From: Acidimicrobiaceae bacterium
Lineage (GTDB): Bacteria > Actinomycetota > Acidimicrobiia > Acidimicrobiales > Acidimicrobiaceae
DNA length: 64,000 bases
NCBI GenBank assembly: GCA_013044385.1
Contig: JABEUN010000071.1
Coordinates: 1 to 64,000, forward strand
Direction of reading: 5' to 3'
Shown: piece after piece, positions 2,245-30,532 of the stretch
Layout: every line of letters starts with the position of its first letter
Position numbering within the stretch: position 1 is the first letter of the stretch
The notes under the pieces: model-generated
Told to the model about the DNA's origin: nothing
The model's input: the letters and a program-made list of their open reading frames with translations, nothing else
The model's database searches: none
Position numbers and translations under genes: made by a program

Positions 2245-4328
2245 CAGAAGGCTCCCGTGGCGGTGAGGATCAAGTCGATCAGTTTGATGAAGACGAATGG
2301 AACGATCACTCCGCCAACCCCATAGAGCAGGACATTTCGTCTAAGGATTGACGTCGCACCCTGGGGCCTGAACTTCACGCCCTTGAGAGCTAGTGGTATC
2401 AAGGCAATTATCACTAATGCATTGAAAATTACAGCGGAGAGCACCGCACTTTGAGGACTGTGGAGCTTCATAATATTCAACACCTTGAGCTGGGGGTAAC
2501 TCGCAACGAACAGGGCGGGCACGATGGCGAAGTACTTGGCGACATCGTTCGCAATGGAAAAGGTGGTCAGCGCACCACGGGTGATTAGAAGCTCCTTTCC
2601 AATCTGGACTATGTCGATCAATTTCGTGGGGTTGGAGTCAAGATCCACCATGTTGCCAGCCTCTTTAGCGGCGTTGGTGCCGGTATTCATGGCGACTCCA
2701 ACGTCTGCTTGTGCGAGTGCTGGTGCATCGTTGGTCCCATCTCCGGTCATGGCCACCAGCTTGCCACCCTGCTGCTCCGCCTTGATAAGGTCCATCTTCG
2801 CCTCAGGAGTAGCCTCTGCTAGGAAGTCGTCTACTCCTGCCTCTTGTGCGATTGCTGCGGCAGTGAGGGGATTGTCCCCGGTGATCATGACTGTCCTTAT
2901 ACCCATAGCGCGCATGTCGTCGAATCTCTCCCGAATGCCCTGCTTGACTACGTCCTTCAGCTCGATTACGCCGATAATCTCCGGTCCGTCGGCTACAACT
3001 AAGGGCGTCGAGCCGGCTCTGGACACCCGAGCTACGATCTCGTCTAGTTCATTCGGAATCGATCCGCCCTGTTCCTGCACCCATCGTTTGACGGAGTCGG
3101 ATGCTCCTTTTCGGATCCTGTGGCCATCGATATCCAGACCCGACATCCTGGTCTGAGCCGTGAAGGGGACAAAGGCGTGATCGTCTCCCACCTCGCGGCC
3201 CCGAAGATCGAATCGTTCCTTTGCCAGCACAACAATCGAGCGGCCCTCTGGGGTCTCGTCTGCTAACGAGGACAGTTGAGCTGTGTCGGCGACCTCTGCC
3301 TCGGTATGACCCGGGACCGGATAGAAGCTGGAAGCCATCCTGTTTCCCAGGGTGATTGTGCCAGTCTTGTCTAAAAGCAGCGTTTGGACGTCACCGGCGG
3401 CCTCCACTGCTCTGCCGCTCATTGCAAGTACGTTGCGTTGGACCAGGCGGTCCATTCCCGCTATCCCTATTGCAGACAAAAGCGCGCCAATGGTCGTCGG
3501 GATAAGGCAGACTAAGAGCGCGATCAACACCACTACTGAAACGGATGTGCCTGCAAAGTGTCCAAATGGCTCGAGGACTACTACGACAGGGAGAAACACA
3601 ATAGTTAGAGCCGCTAACAAGATGGTTAGTGCGATTTCGTTCGGAGTCTTCTGTCTACTGGCACCTTCGACGAGTTTGATCATGCGATCCAGGAAAGTGT
3701 GCCCCGGTTCGGCCGTAATCCTGACCATAATTCGATCCGATAGGACCTTTGTGCCGCCCGTGACTGCTGATCTGTCCCCGCCAGATTCTCGAATTACCGG
3801 TGCAGATTCACCGGTAATCGCGGATTCGTCCACCGACGCAACGCCTTCGATAATCTCTCCATCTGAAGGTATGACGTCACCGGCCTCACATACGACACAG
3901 TCGCCTTGGCGTAGCTGGGACGCTTGTATCCGAGCTTCAGTTCCATCGTCTTTGACAATTCTGGCATCGGTGTCCGACCTAAGGCGTCTCAGGGCGTCGG
4001 CTTGAGCCTTACCCCTACCTTCGGCGACCGCCTCCGCAAAGTTCGCGAACATGACGGTCAGGAAGAGCCAGACCGTGACGCTCCAAGAGAAGATCGACGG
4101 GTGTGAAATCGACTCTATAAATGTGATAATCGTCCCGATGAGCACAACGAACATCACCGGATTGCGCACCTGAATGCGTGGGTCCAATTTTTTGAAAGAT
4201 CCGTTTAGGGCTTGCAGGAGTATCTCTCGATCGAATAGTCCCCTACCTTGGGCTACTCCTCTTGCTCCCCCAGCGTTGTCGCCGGTTGAACCTTGCGGCT
4301 CGGTCCTTGGTTCCTGGCTCAGAGTCAT
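2244..4328 (-). CDS. kdpB: Potassium-transporting P-type ATPase subunit B
   Basis: KdpB is the catalytic subunit of the KdpFABC complex in the cytoplasmic membrane and hydrolyses ATP to drive potassium uptake. P-type ATPase hallmarks are present: the actuator loop TGES (about 172-175), the phosphorylated aspartate in [11 protein letters not shown] (Asp320) and the hinge motif [18 protein letters not shown]. The N-terminus has about 30 extra low-complexity polar residues before the usual start. The 694 residues match the family. One-base overlaps join it to kdpA (TAATG) and kdpC (TGATG). The serine of TGES is the site of inhibitory phosphorylation known in E. coli KdpB. Confidence 0.97.
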
Positions 4329-23961: not shown

Positions 23962-24636
23962 TCAGTCGCTGTTCGGAGTCTGCCGTCTAAAAATATACGA
24001 GCCGAGAGCTTCGCCGTGGTCTGCAGTCATCCATCCGAACTCGACGGCAAGTCGATCTTCTCTCGCTTCAACAACATCGACCTCGACACTCACCACACCA
24101 GAAGGAAGGGCCATAGATAGGCGATAACCGGACTCGTCGTCGGGTAAGACTGTGCCGTCAACTGTAATTGCAGCGCCGGACGAGGAGATATCGACCACTG
24201 TCGCTGCTCGGTTGATGCGCGGTCTTCGTGAATTAGACGTTATGGACGCTCGGAGGTCTGTCTGAACTCGGAATGCTCCACGACGCTGTGCCTTGGCCCA
24301 CGGAGCCAGCTGCCTAGCTTGCAGTAGCGGCCTACCGTCGGAGCTGTAAATCAACCTGCACTCGAACTCTGCGCTGAAGATTCCACAGGCATCGCGCGCC
24401 TCGACGACAAAGAAGTCAGCACCCGGATCGGCTGCGAATCCCGAGGCATCCACGAGCATCTCAGCACCGTCGAGTGCAACCACCGCGCCATTATGTTCGA
24501 TCAGGGGAAGATGGGATCCAAATCGGTAGCCGATAATCCGCACCGAGCTACCTGGCGCAAGTACAGGTCCACCGGGCCAACCCTCGAACTCCTGCGATCG
24601 ATCATTTGTAACAAAGAAGCTCGGATCTCTTCTCAC
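23962..24636 (-). CDS. PilZ-domain protein (first of a tandem pair)
   Basis: The C-terminal half is a PilZ domain, the receptor module for cyclic di-GMP. It shows the RxxxR signature in QRRGAFRV (Arg119 and Arg123) and D-x-S-x-x-G in DISSSG (149-154). The N-terminal 110 residues resemble the YcgR-type flagellar-brake barrel. No membrane segment is present. The protein is homologous along its full length to the neighbour at 24747-25418, so the pair arose by duplication. No flagellar or pilus genes are in the window, so the output is unknown. Confidence 0.85.
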   Translation of the reverse strand: MRRDPSFFVTNDRSQEFEGWPGGPVLAPGSSVRIIGYRFGSHLPLIEHNGAVVALDGAEMLVDASGFAADPGADFFVVEARDACGIFSAEFECRLIYSSDGRPLLQARQLAPWAKAQRRGAFRVQTDLRASITSNSRRPRINRAATVVDISSSGAAITVDGTVLPDDESGYRLSMALPSGVVSVEVDVVEAREDRLAVEFGWMTADHGEALGSYIFRRQTPNSD

Positions 24637-24746: not shown

Positions 24747-25418
24747 TTACTCGTCGTCGTCGTTTTTCGACCGTGCGACCTGCTTTTCGAACACGTATGT
24801 TCCCAAGAGTTTCGACTGCGCTAGAGGAACTGATGCGAATTCAAAACCGACGACATTACCCCGCTTCGATACGACGTCTGCGACCAACGAGACGCTACCG
24901 CTTGGCAGGACAAAGTTTAATCGATACCTGCCGGACAGCTGGTGAGCAGAGTCTCGTCCCACATCCACACCCGCTCCGGCAACTGACATATCGACTATCT
25001 TGCCCGAGTAGGTCGTAGGACGAACAATCTCCATGGTGCTAACAGTGGCTTCGAGGTCCGTCTTGACCCTAAATGCCTTGCGGCGCTGAATTCGCTTCCA
25101 ACCCGAGATCAGTCCGAGCCTCACGGTCTGTATGGAGACGGAGGGGAGCTTCTGAAAACTAGAAAGTGCCCTCCATACCCCAAATTCGTCGACCGCCTCG
25201 ACCACAAATTGCACACACGACGGATCTGGATCTAGTGGTTCTTCGCTCTCGACTATGAGCTGGGCTTCAGAATCCGTGACAAGTTGTGCTCGCAGTACTT
25301 TGTCGAGCGCGTCGTTCTCATCGAAGAAACAGTAGATCTTGATAAAGGGAACAGAGCTCAGCCGCGGAGCAACTATGAAGGAGCCCTCTTCGTCGTCTGA
25401 TCCATCGTCCCACGCCAT
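24747..25418 (-). CDS. PilZ-domain protein (second of a tandem pair)
   Basis: This 223-residue protein repeats the layout of its neighbour. It has an N-terminal YcgR-like barrel preceded by an acidic start (DDGSDDEEG), then a PilZ domain with QRRKAFRV (Arg113 and Arg117) and DMSVAG (143-148). The cyclic-di-GMP contact residues are intact. It would be transcribed first, with 110 bases between the two genes. Divergence between the copies is large, so the duplication is not recent. Confidence 0.85.
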   Translation of the reverse strand: MAWDDGSDDEEGSFIVAPRLSSVPFIKIYCFFDENDALDKVLRAQLVTDSEAQLIVESEEPLDPDPSCVQFVVEAVDEFGVWRALSSFQKLPSVSIQTVRLGLISGWKRIQRRKAFRVKTDLEATVSTMEIVRPTTYSGKIVDMSVAGAGVDVGRDSAHQLSGRYRLNFVLPSGSVSLVADVVSKRGNVVGFEFASVPLAQSKLLGTYVFEKQVARSKNDDDE

Positions 25419-26114: not shown

Positions 26115-27323
26115 ATGATCTGTTTTCTATTTCCTGGCCAGGGATCCCAGAAGCCGGGCATGGGCAAAGCTTGGGTTGATCATCCGTCATGGGAACTAGT
26201 CGGCGAAGCGTCAGACGCTACCGGTCGAGATATCTCATACCTCCTGCTTGACGCGACTTCAGAGGAGTTGTCGTTCACTAGGAACACGCAACTTGCCACA
26301 TTCGTAATGTCCATGGTGGCCCTAGACTCAGTGGAAAGACTCGGAATAGTCCCACAGCTAGTGGCGGGTCACTCATTGGGCGAATACTCCGCCCTTGTCG
26401 CATCCGGAGCCGTAGCGTTCGACGCTGGTGCGCGATTGGTTTCGGAGAGGTCCGAAGCGATGGCAGTTGCCGCCGAAGAATCTCCGGGTTCTATGGCTGC
26501 ACTGCTCGGAATTGAGGACTCCGCTGCAGAAGAGGCTTGCTCTGAGGTCGATGGCGTCTGGGTGGCGAACTACAACTCTGCTGGGCAGGTTGTGATTGCC
26601 GGAACCAAAGATGGGGTTGCCGCAGCGTGCGATGTAGCAAAGACATTGGGAGCAAAGCGGGCAATGATCATCCCAGTCGGTGGCGGCTTCCACACCCCAC
26701 TGATGAACTCTGCCATTCCAAGGCTCCAGAAGGCTCTCGACTCTGTCCGGTTCTACGACTCCGAAGTTCCAGTTGTTGCAAACGTAGACGCTGCGGAACA
26801 TATGCTCGCCTCAGACTGGAGCGGATTGCTACTGCACCAACTCACGTCTCCGGTCAAGTGGAGCCAATCGCTCAAACTCATAGCCGAATACAATCCAACC
26901 GTCATGGTCGAGGTCGGCCCTGGAGCAGTACTAACTGGACTGGTCAAGAGGGCTATGCCGGATGCAACGGTGATTAGCGTCTCCACTCCAGATCAGCTCG
27001 ATGATTTAGTAGCAGCGGTATCTGCGACCGGACCACTGCATGACTTTGCCACCACTCATCACGGTGAACACCTGTTCATGCAGGAGCGGCTCGTTGTGAG
27101 TCCACTCGCTGGAATCTTCACTACCGCAGCGCAAGCGTCGTCAGGCGAACCGCTCAAAGAAGGTGCAACTATCTCAGTTGGAGATCCCATCGGTACCATC
27201 AATGGACATGAAGTCAGATCGCCCTTCGAGGGGACGCTAATGGGAATGGTCGCTGTTGATGGCGAGCGAGTTGGGTCAAGCCAACCTTTGGCTTGGCTGA
27301 GGATAGAAGGAGTGTCCAGATAG
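26115..27323 (+). CDS. fabD: Malonyl-CoA:ACP transacylase with a C-terminal biotinyl/lipoyl-like domain
   Basis: Residues 1-300 are FabD, which transfers malonyl from CoA to ACP. They include FPGQGSQKPGMG (6-17), the nucleophile elbow GHSLGEYSAL (Ser87), the histidine in GGGFHTPLM and the late-family VEVGPGAVLTGLVKR. About 95 further residues (308-402) are unusual. From about 326 they resemble a biotin-carboxyl-carrier/lipoyl barrel: VVSPLAGIFTT, EGATISVGDPIGTI, EVRSPFEGTLMGMVAVDGERVGSSQPLAWLRI. The hairpin that would hold the modified lysine (EAMKM in BCCP) is shortened to NGHE, so it cannot be biotinylated or lipoylated. It starts the fab operon behind GGAGGATAAGGG. Confidence 0.93.
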   Translation: MICFLFPGQGSQKPGMGKAWVDHPSWELVGEASDATGRDISYLLLDATSEELSFTRNTQLATFVMSMVALDSVERLGIVPQLVAGHSLGEYSALVASGAVAFDAGARLVSERSEAMAVAAEESPGSMAALLGIEDSAAEEACSEVDGVWVANYNSAGQVVIAGTKDGVAAACDVAKTLGAKRAMIIPVGGGFHTPLMNSAIPRLQKALDSVRFYDSEVPVVANVDAAEHMLASDWSGLLLHQLTSPVKWSQSLKLIAEYNPTVMVEVGPGAVLTGLVKRAMPDATVISVSTPDQLDDLVAAVSATGPLHDFATTHHGEHLFMQERLVVSPLAGIFTTAAQASSGEPLKEGATISVGDPIGTINGHEVRSPFEGTLMGMVAVDGERVGSSQPLAWLRIEGVSR

Positions 27324-28258
27324 TGGCTATAGGGGCAAAGATCACTGGATGGGGATCGGCTGTTCCCGAAAAAATCGTGAAGAACTCCGATTTCGAGGGC
27401 CGACTTGAGACATCTGACCAATGGATTGTAGAACGAACCGGAATCCGGGAGCGTCGTTGGGGGGGCACCACCACAAGCCTGGCGGTCGAGGCAGGAGCGG
27501 CCGCCATCAAGTCCGCTGGACTATCTCCGTCAGAGATTGATCTTGTGATCCTGTCCACAACGACACCGGATCAGACAACACCAGCCACATCTTCCGTGGT
27601 TTCTCACCTTATCGGAACGTCCGGCGGAGCATTTGACCTCAACGCAGCCTGCGCAGGTTACGTATACGCCATGGTGGTGGGCCATGCGATGGTCGCCACA
27701 GGTGTCAACAAGAAGGTACTGGTGATTGGATCCGACACCTTGTCAAAGATCACCGACATGGAGGATAGAGGAACTGCGATTCTCTTCGCCGATGGTGCTG
27801 GTGCAGTCGTCCTCGAGTCATCCGAACGGGATGACTTCCTAGGCAGCGAACTAGGCGTTGATGGTGCTGCACAACCGATCCTGTACTGCGACCACGGAAG
27901 CTACCTTCGCATGGAGGGTAGAGAGGTATTCAAAAAGGCGGTTCGGGTGATGGTCGAATCAGCGGAGATTGCCATGAAAAAGGCAGGGATAACGGCCGAC
28001 GACATCTCACTCTGCGTCCCGCACCAAGCGAACCTACGAATCATTGAGTCGGCGTGTAAGAGATTGGGGATTCCGATCGAAAAGGCCGCAGTTTGTCTTG
28101 ACAAGTACGGAAATACCTCCTCCGGATCCGTCCCCCTTGCACTTGCTGATGCAGCTGATAACGGAAGACTCAGCAACGGTGACCTCGTCCTGTTCTCCGG
28201 CTTCGGTGCGGGAATGACCTGGGCCAGCTCGGTAGTCCGCTGGCAGGCATCCAAATGA
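27323..28258 (+). CDS. fabH: Beta-ketoacyl-ACP synthase III
   Basis: FabH condenses an acyl-CoA primer with malonyl-ACP to start fatty-acid synthesis. The catalytic cysteine is in NAACAGYVYA, the histidine in CVPHQANLRII and the asparagine in YGNTSSGSVPL. The GTG at 27323 is chosen because it overlaps the fabD stop codon by one base (TAGTG), follows AGAAGGAG and gives the usual N-terminus (AIGAKITGWG). An upstream TTG in frame would extend into fabD. Confidence 0.96.
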   Translation: MAIGAKITGWGSAVPEKIVKNSDFEGRLETSDQWIVERTGIRERRWGGTTTSLAVEAGAAAIKSAGLSPSEIDLVILSTTTPDQTTPATSSVVSHLIGTSGGAFDLNAACAGYVYAMVVGHAMVATGVNKKVLVIGSDTLSKITDMEDRGTAILFADGAGAVVLESSERDDFLGSELGVDGAAQPILYCDHGSYLRMEGREVFKKAVRVMVESAEIAMKKAGITADDISLCVPHQANLRIIESACKRLGIPIEKAAVCLDKYGNTSSGSVPLALADAADNGRLSNGDLVLFSGFGAGMTWASSVVRWQASK

Positions 28259-28995
28259 CCTCAGGAGAGGACGTGCCTAGAAACGTCTTTGTGACCGGTG
28301 GCGCCACTGGAATCGGGCAGGCGGTGGTTCGCGCCTTTCTCGATTCGGGTGACAGGGTCACCCTCTGCTACCGTTCCAGCCAGCCACCAGAGGACCTTCT
28401 CCAGCACGAACGCGTAGCGGCCATAAAACTGGATGTCACTTCTTCGGCCGAGATCGATGCTGCTTTTGCCGAGTCCGAGGAGCGTTTTGGGCCCGTCGCT
28501 GTACTCGTAGTAAACGCTGGGGCTACCGCCGATGGCCTGATGCTCCGAATGTCCGACAACGCCTGGAACACCACCATTGAGACGAACCTAACCGCAAGCT
28601 TCCACCTGACAAAAAGAGCCACTGCGACCATGGTCAGACAACGATACGGGCGGATCATCCTCGTCTCTTCGGTAGTGGCATTCACTGGTTCAGCAGGTCA
28701 GGTCAACTACGCCGCATCAAAGGCTGGAATGGTAGGGCTCGCAAGATCGCTAGCACGGGAACTCGCTACAAGATCGATCACGGTCAACGTAGTAGCCCCA
28801 GGTGCAGTTGCGACCGAGATGGTGCTCTCACTGCCAGATGCGAGGCAGGCAGCTATCGCAAAAGAGACTCCGATGGGACGAATTGCCGAAGCAAAAGAGA
28901 TCGCTTCAGCCATCGCATTCTTGGGGTCCGATTCTGCAAGTTTCATCACGGGTGCTGTTCTGGCAGTCGACGGTGGACTCTCGATGGGCCTGTAA
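28255..28995 (+). CDS. fabG: 3-oxoacyl-ACP reductase
   Basis: FabG is the NADPH-dependent short-chain dehydrogenase of the elongation cycle. It shows the cofactor loop TGGATGIGQAV, NAGATADGLM, the catalytic serine in VSSVVAFTGSAG and YAASKAG (Tyr and Lys). The ending ITGAVLAVDGGLSMG is typical. The ATG overlaps the fabH stop codon (ATGA). A GTG at 28273 behind AGGAGAGGA is a possible alternative that gives a shorter N-terminus. Confidence 0.95.
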   Translation: MTSGEDVPRNVFVTGGATGIGQAVVRAFLDSGDRVTLCYRSSQPPEDLLQHERVAAIKLDVTSSAEIDAAFAESEERFGPVAVLVVNAGATADGLMLRMSDNAWNTTIETNLTASFHLTKRATATMVRQRYGRIILVSSVVAFTGSAGQVNYAASKAGMVGLARSLARELATRSITVNVVAPGAVATEMVLSLPDARQAAIAKETPMGRIAEAKEIASAIAFLGSDSASFITGAVLAVDGGLSMGL

Positions 28996-29075
28996 CGGGT
29001 AGGTCGAAAGGTTAAGTAATATCTTTGCGAGTCGATGGTCGGCTCGCATTTGGTGAGTCAACGAAAGGACTCGAA

Positions 29076-29318
29076 ATGGATCAGCAGGCGGCGTTTGAGA
29101 AGTTCAAGGAGTGCGCGGTCAAGGTTCTCGGAGTAACGCCGGACCAGGTCGTTCCAACCGCCCGTTTCGCAGAAGATCTGGATGCAGACAGTTTGGATCT
29201 TGTCGAGTTGGTAATGGCACTTGAGGACGAGTTCGGAGTGAGTGTCGACGAATCAGAGCTCGAAGGAGTAGAGACCGTTCAGCAGTCATTCGAATTGATA
29301 ACCGGGAAGATGGAATGA
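29076..29318 (+). CDS. acpP: Acyl carrier protein
   Basis: The 80-residue acidic protein carries the growing acyl chain on phosphopantetheine attached to the serine of DADSLDLVEL. The ATG at 29076 is preceded by GAAAGGA and gives the standard length; a longer frame upstream is not needed. Its TGA overlaps the fabF start (ATGA). Confidence 0.95.
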   Translation: MDQQAAFEKFKECAVKVLGVTPDQVVPTARFAEDLDADSLDLVELVMALEDEFGVSVDESELEGVETVQQSFELITGKME

Positions 29319-30532
29319 AATTAACGTGGGGACCTAAAGGTCCGTCAGATGGAGTCGAAGCCCCTTTCAAGGTCGCAATTGTTGGCGTTGGACTGATCAG
29401 TTGCCTCGGGCAGACCAAGGAGTCCTTCTGGAAGGGACTCTTCGGACCTGCTCTAGTGGGACTGAGGACGATCGATGACTTTGACGCGTCAAATTGGCTT
29501 GGCCCCAAAGAGATCCGTCGACACGACCGGTTCAACCAGATGGGAATTGCCGCCTCGTCGCTTGCAATGCAAGACGCTGGCGACCTCAAGATCACCGATC
29601 CAGGTCGCGCTGGCGTTCTCGTTGGCACCGGTGTAGGGGGACTAGACAGTTTGGAAACTCAGGTAATGGTCGGTAACACCAGGGGATTCGACAGGGTAAC
29701 CCCATTCCTTGTCCCGCTGATGATGGCAAATGCAGGAGCGGCATCGATATCAATGCGCTTTGGCTTCCAAGGACCATGTGAAACCACCGTCACCGCCTGC
29801 GCGGCTGGCACCCAGGCCATTGCCAACGCCGCAAGGTTGATCGCAACCGGGCGTTGCGACGTCATGCTCACAGGTGGATCTGAATGTGCAATGACCGATA
29901 CGGCAAAAGCGGGCTTCAAGAACATGACCGCAATGTCAAACGCAGGTATCTCGAGGCCATTCGACAGAGACCGCGATGGATTTATGATGGCCGAAGGCGC
30001 CGCCATTCTTGTGCTCGAAGAACTCAATCGAGCTAAGGCAAGAGGTGCGCACATCTACGCCACAATTGATGGAGCAGCCTCGAATGCAGACGCGTATCAC
30101 ATCACAGCTCCTTCTCCGCACGGCGTTGGAGCGGCTGGATGTATGCGTATTGCAATTGCCGACGCTGGTCTAACTCCTAAGGACATCGCTCATATCAATG
30201 CTCACGGTACGTCGACACCTATGAACGACCTAGCCGAGGGAGAGGCGATGAACGATGTGTTCGGATCCGTTACGCCACCTGTCACCTCGCTCAAGGGGGC
30301 GCTCGGCCATGCGTTCGGATCTGCAGGTGCACTCGAAGCAGTCGGCGCATGTCTCACCATTGAGCACGGTGTCATCCCTCCGACACTGGGCACCAAGGAG
30401 ATTGATCCAGCTATCCATGTCGACGTCGTAATGGGTGAGGGTAGGCCCTTTGTGGCTGGACCAATCCTCTCGAACTCATTCGGATTCGGTGGTCATAACG
30501 GATCAATCGTTATAAGCCCGTTGGAAAGCTGA
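29315..30532 (+). CDS. fabF: Beta-ketoacyl-ACP synthase II
   Basis: FabF performs the condensation step of chain elongation. The catalytic triad is visible as the cysteine in TACAAGTQAI and the histidines in INAHGTSTPMND and LGHAFGSAGALE. The end FGFGGHNGSIV is typical. The protein has about 18 extra N-terminal residues before VAIVGVGLIS. It is the last gene of the fab operon and is followed by a hairpin at 30550-30592. Confidence 0.95.
   Translation: MKLTWGPKGPSDGVEAPFKVAIVGVGLISCLGQTKESFWKGLFGPALVGLRTIDDFDASNWLGPKEIRRHDRFNQMGIAASSLAMQDAGDLKITDPGRAGVLVGTGVGGLDSLETQVMVGNTRGFDRVTPFLVPLMMANAGAASISMRFGFQGPCETTVTACAAGTQAIANAARLIATGRCDVMLTGGSECAMTDTAKAGFKNMTAMSNAGISRPFDRDRDGFMMAEGAAILVLEELNRAKARGAHIYATIDGAASNADAYHITAPSPHGVGAAGCMRIAIADAGLTPKDIAHINAHGTSTPMNDLAEGEAMNDVFGSVTPPVTSLKGALGHAFGSAGALEAVGACLTIEHGVIPPTLGTKEIDPAIHVDVVMGEGRPFVAGPILSNSFGFGGHNGSIVISPLES

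Follow-up and report, generated by a model that had tools for sequence, protein, structure and literature searches.

A lysine-less biotinyl/lipoyl-like domain fused to, or encoded beside, FabD in Actinomycetota and its possible role in malonyl supply

The window analysed here is the whole 64,000-nucleotide stretch of contig JABEUN010000071.1 from an Acidimicrobiaceae bacterium, and its plus strand carries a fab operon. An ORF of 402 aa (26115-27323) encodes FabD, the malonyl-CoA:ACP transacylase. The whole protein scores 266.2 bits against TIGR00128 (cut-off 260.9), its enzyme part passes as FabD, and the catalytic residues, a serine in GHSxGE (S87, GHSLGEY), R112 and H193, are invariant in the alignment. 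The NCBIfam match spans residues 1-283, near the end of which an ordinary FabD stops. Ordinary enzymes have about 300-320 aa and no further domain, whereas in this protein the catalytic part and the start of a linker (26115-27035; TIGR00128, AlphaFold2) are followed by a lysine-less biotinyl/lipoyl-like barrel (27036-27323, residues 308-402), referred to as domain X in this text. Domain X proper comprises approximately residues 314-398 (about 27051-27305) and has a conserved GEHLFxxER entry motif. The next ORF in the operon, on the same strand, is fabH (27293-28258; the true start is uncertain and lies near 27320). Its family was assigned from a reading of the sequence, and its homologues come right after X in genomes where X is a separate gene. 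The ORFs of fabG (28255-28995), acpP (29025-29318; start uncertain, with an ATG at about 29076) and fabF (29315-30532) follow, also on the plus strand; they are taken from the ORF list and are syntenic in relatives. Upstream of fabD, two adjacent ORFs on the minus strand (23962-24636 and 24747-25418) carry similar RRxAFRVxTDL motifs that are reminiscent of PilZ-type domains.

An earlier note on this DNA had claimed that FabD bears an extra C-terminal barrel of the biotinyl/lipoyl type without the modifiable lysine. The strand motifs that it listed are present in the tail as quoted, the hairpin reads NGHE, and the claim was borne out by structure prediction, Foldseek, VIA and the hairpin alignment. 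AlphaFold2 on the tail (nine sequences) gave one good model with a core pLDDT of about 90 and the expected strands; the remaining four models were poor, the depth of the alignment being marginal. An independent full-length prediction placed the same strands at residues 324-396 (mean pLDDT 89.5). In full-length FabD the pLDDT was mostly above 90, falling below 50 in the linker at residues 309-318. The top Foldseek match of the X model was the BCCP of P. horikoshi (E 4e-4, TM 0.84), with BCCPs ranked first, and VIA aligned 70 residues of X with E. coli BCCP (Z 11.0, rmsd 2.1). The predicted fold is therefore a biotinyl/lipoyl barrel.

At the sequence level, phmmer of the single tail against the PDB yielded only matches with E 0.7-1, so profiles were needed. 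With a profile built from 30 diverse relatives, the PDB search found the transcarboxylase 1.3S subunit (E 1.3e-12) and E. coli BCCP (E 2e-8); thumbless BCCPs ranked first (those of the AccB type are thumbed). The tail alone reached E 4e-4 with NCBIfam PRK07051 and E 0.011 with Pfam Biotin_lipoyl (PF00364), in the latter case with 15.9 bits against a gathering cut-off of 22.1. With the AccB/BCCP model TIGR00531 it scored 12.8 against 115.2 bits, and it lacks the biotinylation motif. X has both the barrel fold of PF00364 and a detectable profile homology to it. Together, the AlphaFold2, Foldseek, VIA and profile matches make the homology to biotinyl domains, and the BCCP fold, firm and more than an impression from motifs. 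No curated family in Pfam, NCBIfam and the other libraries searched describes X. Its members match other biotinyl-type families, and domain X of the 402-aa FabD lies far below the cut-offs of these.

In an alignment to E. coli BCCP, the biotin lysine is missing from all 129 FASII-linked copies of X and present in all 10 control biotinyl domains; genuine biotinyl domains encoded nearby retain it as well. The modifiable lysine at the hairpin tip, by which PF00364 domains are recognised, is missing from X, and the (E)(A/S)MK motif is absent from the FASII-linked copies. Domain X is unable to carry CO2 or carboxyl groups itself. By eye, the hairpin of the separate X proteins is about as long as that of BCCP, and that of the fused Acidimicrobiales copies is four residues shorter, which makes a BCCP-like hairpin contact unlikely in the latter. 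In the order of G546 (L171-L186, L195), a conserved TGGRGRADEV-like sequence takes the place of the hairpin. This conservation suggests that the loop was re-purposed there and not merely lost, possibly as a new binding loop. A lone K in the hairpin alignment (L004) does not belong to X but to the genome's own genuine BCCP, encoded on contig C92 beside a carboxyltransferase gene. On that contig of the source genome (L165, 2948-4936), this 79-aa BCCP (ESMKLE) lies just upstream of the carboxyltransferase, and the two form a natural candidate partner set.

Within the family, and in much of the order, almost every relative that has a FabD match also has the tail. Across 60 relatives it was conserved, and in six of them (G037, G038, G042, G044, G045, G049) the match fell into a separate frame. 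In five of the six, X is a short separate ORF directly downstream of fabD; in G042 a separate X precedes fabH, with no adjacent fabD. The X profile found matches with E <= 1e-10 in 92 of the 247 sampled genomes of the class, and also in other classes of the phylum. The statement that FabD carries an extra tail therefore holds for the fused form, seen in Acidimicrobiales, but falls short as a full picture, as X is a separable gene across much of Actinomycetota. Other Acidimicrobiia and several other lineages of the phylum have it as a gene of 90-120 aa between fabD and fabH, and outside the class the X-bearing loci show the order fabD-X-fabH-(fabG)-acpP-fabF. The retrieved set is redundant; it comprises 88 loci with a FabD-X fusion, 59 in which the two are neighbours and 25 that lack X. 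The start of X overlaps the stop codon of fabD by four bases (ATGA or GTGA) in 9 of 18 split loci, and by one base in L063, suggesting translational coupling. In two Actinomycetes MAGs (L042, L043; 5001-8564), the genes that come after the fabD-X fusion are fabG, acpP and fabF; no fabH intervenes.

FabD operons without X occur in the same class, so the domain is not generally required for FabD. Same-order genomes of the families f20, f23 and f27 are without X, and their FabD match is weaker or absent. These X-less genomes hint that X is lost when this type of FabD is replaced.

A tree of FabD (85 rows) demands at least three changes for the fused state, two of which are forced by starred branches. 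The fused state marks a clade centred on Acidimicrobiales as well as f79 and f113, of which f113 sits on a long branch. The Acidimicrobiia with a split arrangement form a clade inside the fused one, and fission and separate fusions therefore look alike there. In both cases, FabD and X have been joined or parted more than once, with at least 2-3 changes. In close pairs, the dN/dS ratio of the tail ranged from 0.02 to 0.20, in most of them slightly above that of the catalytic part, which speaks for a functional domain under purifying selection. It could be argued that X is a decaying, functionless remnant of accB, given that the sole catalytic residue is gone. This is very improbable: the selection data contradict it, as do the residues that are invariant across deep lineages and the conserved substitute hairpin in one order. 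X is an old, separable and uncharacterised family of Actinomycetota, and its family, fold and partnership with FabD are well supported.

The repeated fusion and the ATGA coupling could also mean that X serves FabD alone, as a structural domain that promotes its stability or oligomerisation and binds no other partner. We regard this as improbable, because AlphaFold2 predicts a flexible, low-confidence linker between the core and X, because X adjoins fabH or a carboxyltransferase gene without fabD in one order, and because FabD elsewhere does without such a domain.

In split Acidimicrobiia, a gene for the carboxyltransferase (CT) of an acyl-CoA carboxylase comes after fabF (L058, L060-L064, L148, L245, L247). 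The complete order fabD-X-fabH-fabG-acpP-fabF-CT is seen in L060-L064 and L247, and X-fabH-acpP-fabF-CT in another order (L137, L138). In two genomes X lies directly upstream of CT, at a distance of 16 bp in L127/L177 (G546) and 90 bp in L182 (G571); fabD and fabH were not detected within the stretch retrieved around these X-CT pairs. A CT gene was not found downstream of fabF within the retrieved stretch in the examples from f67, f102, f107, f99 and f79, nor beside the fab operon of the source genome, whose CT genes are on other contigs. The mycobacterial fasII operon is not known to contain an X gene. That operon resembles those described here in that FASII genes are followed by a carboxyltransferase gene, accD6, which comes after kasB (PMC4014462); the proximity of CT to FASII alone is therefore not special to X.

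We propose that X is a non-catalytic pseudo-BCCP that acts as an adaptor of FabD in an assembly for malonyl supply and initiation and docks on the carboxylase, a reading to which we assign a probability of roughly 40%. FabD uses malonyl-CoA and acetyl-CoA carboxylase makes it, so the simplest mechanism would be a tether to the carboxylase or to an initiation complex of FabH and ACP. What X keeps of a BCCP would be a shape that matches the surfaces of a carboxylase. Either fused to FabD or translated together with it, X would tether the enzyme by a flexible linker into the malonyl-ACP supply and initiation assembly. Its most likely dock would be the carboxyltransferase of the acyl-CoA carboxylase; FabH or ACP would be secondary partners. 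Malonyl-CoA could then be consumed at the site of its production. The earlier note had already suggested docking to acetyl-CoA carboxylase or ACP, and we keep this as a hypothesis. The repeated fusion to FabD, the ATGA overlaps, the CT-ending operons and the two X-CT genomes count in its favour as circumstantial evidence, the putative link between X and the carboxyltransferase being a genomic one only. A bacterial complex for the hand-off of malonyl-CoA, fused to FabD in Acidimicrobiales, seems to us less likely than not.

The adaptor could also be internal to FASII, uniting FabD, FabH and ACP in an initiation complex in which the carboxylase has no part. X stands beside fabH even where fabD is elsewhere (L058, L135, L171-L181), several lineages have the operon without CT, and work on mycobacteria proposes a FASII complex for initiation that includes both FabD and FabH (PMC4014462). 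Still, the fold of X is that of a carboxylase carrier, and in L127/L177 and L182 it adjoins CT, with neither fabH nor fabD detected in the retrieved stretch; we consider an arrangement confined to FASII possible, though on balance unlikely.

Docking on the carboxylase has a precedent of sorts in the plant BADC proteins, lysine-less BCCP homologues that serve as a 'glue' or assembly subunit of acetyl-CoA carboxylase (PMC11926652). X fits their definition as a BCCP homologue without a biotinylation motif (PMC11926652), and both are non-catalytic and belong to fatty acid synthesis. BADC is part of the eukaryotic plastid enzyme, where it binds BC and BCCP (PMC11926652), whereas X is bacterial, lies within a FASII operon and is often fused to FabD. 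Compared with BCCP itself (AccB, transcarboxylase 1.3S), X shares the barrel but is linked to fabD and fabH and not to a biotin carboxylase gene. The lysine-less BCCP fold would equally suit a regulator, either a ligand sensor or a BADC-like competitor that takes the BCCP site of the carboxylase and so reduces the supply of malonyl-CoA, and PMC11926652 cites a proposal that BADC is inhibitory in vivo. That paper argues against the inhibitory model, though, and a structural role agrees better with an X that is always co-expressed with the consuming enzyme or fused to it, so that a regulatory function is quite improbable.

The open-access papers searched yielded nothing on a FabD with a biotinyl/lipoyl domain, on the FabD of Acidimicrobium or on FabD-ACC metabolons. 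Many relatives encode the same domain in a small gene of its own between fabD and fabH, which makes X look like a non-catalytic component of FASII that has been overlooked. It is natural to ask of FASII whether the carboxylase of bacteria passes malonyl-CoA straight to FabD, and X makes this testable. If docking on the carboxylase is true, X would be a bacterial counterpart, probably an independent one, to the BADC idea that copies of BCCP are retained as scaffolds once they have lost the lysine.

The X set used throughout consists of strong profile matches with a FASII neighbour, and matches bearing MK served as controls. A loose, class-wide X profile also catches true biotinyl/lipoyl proteins at weak E-values (frames of 600 and 1100 aa). 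X-like genes for a lysine-less BCCP fold are moreover found in a locus with nusB, a phosphodiesterase gene, pyrR and pyrB (L139 of G070, 3091-3336; L141 of G064, 2765-3001), and they were kept apart from the FASII-linked X genes because of this different context.
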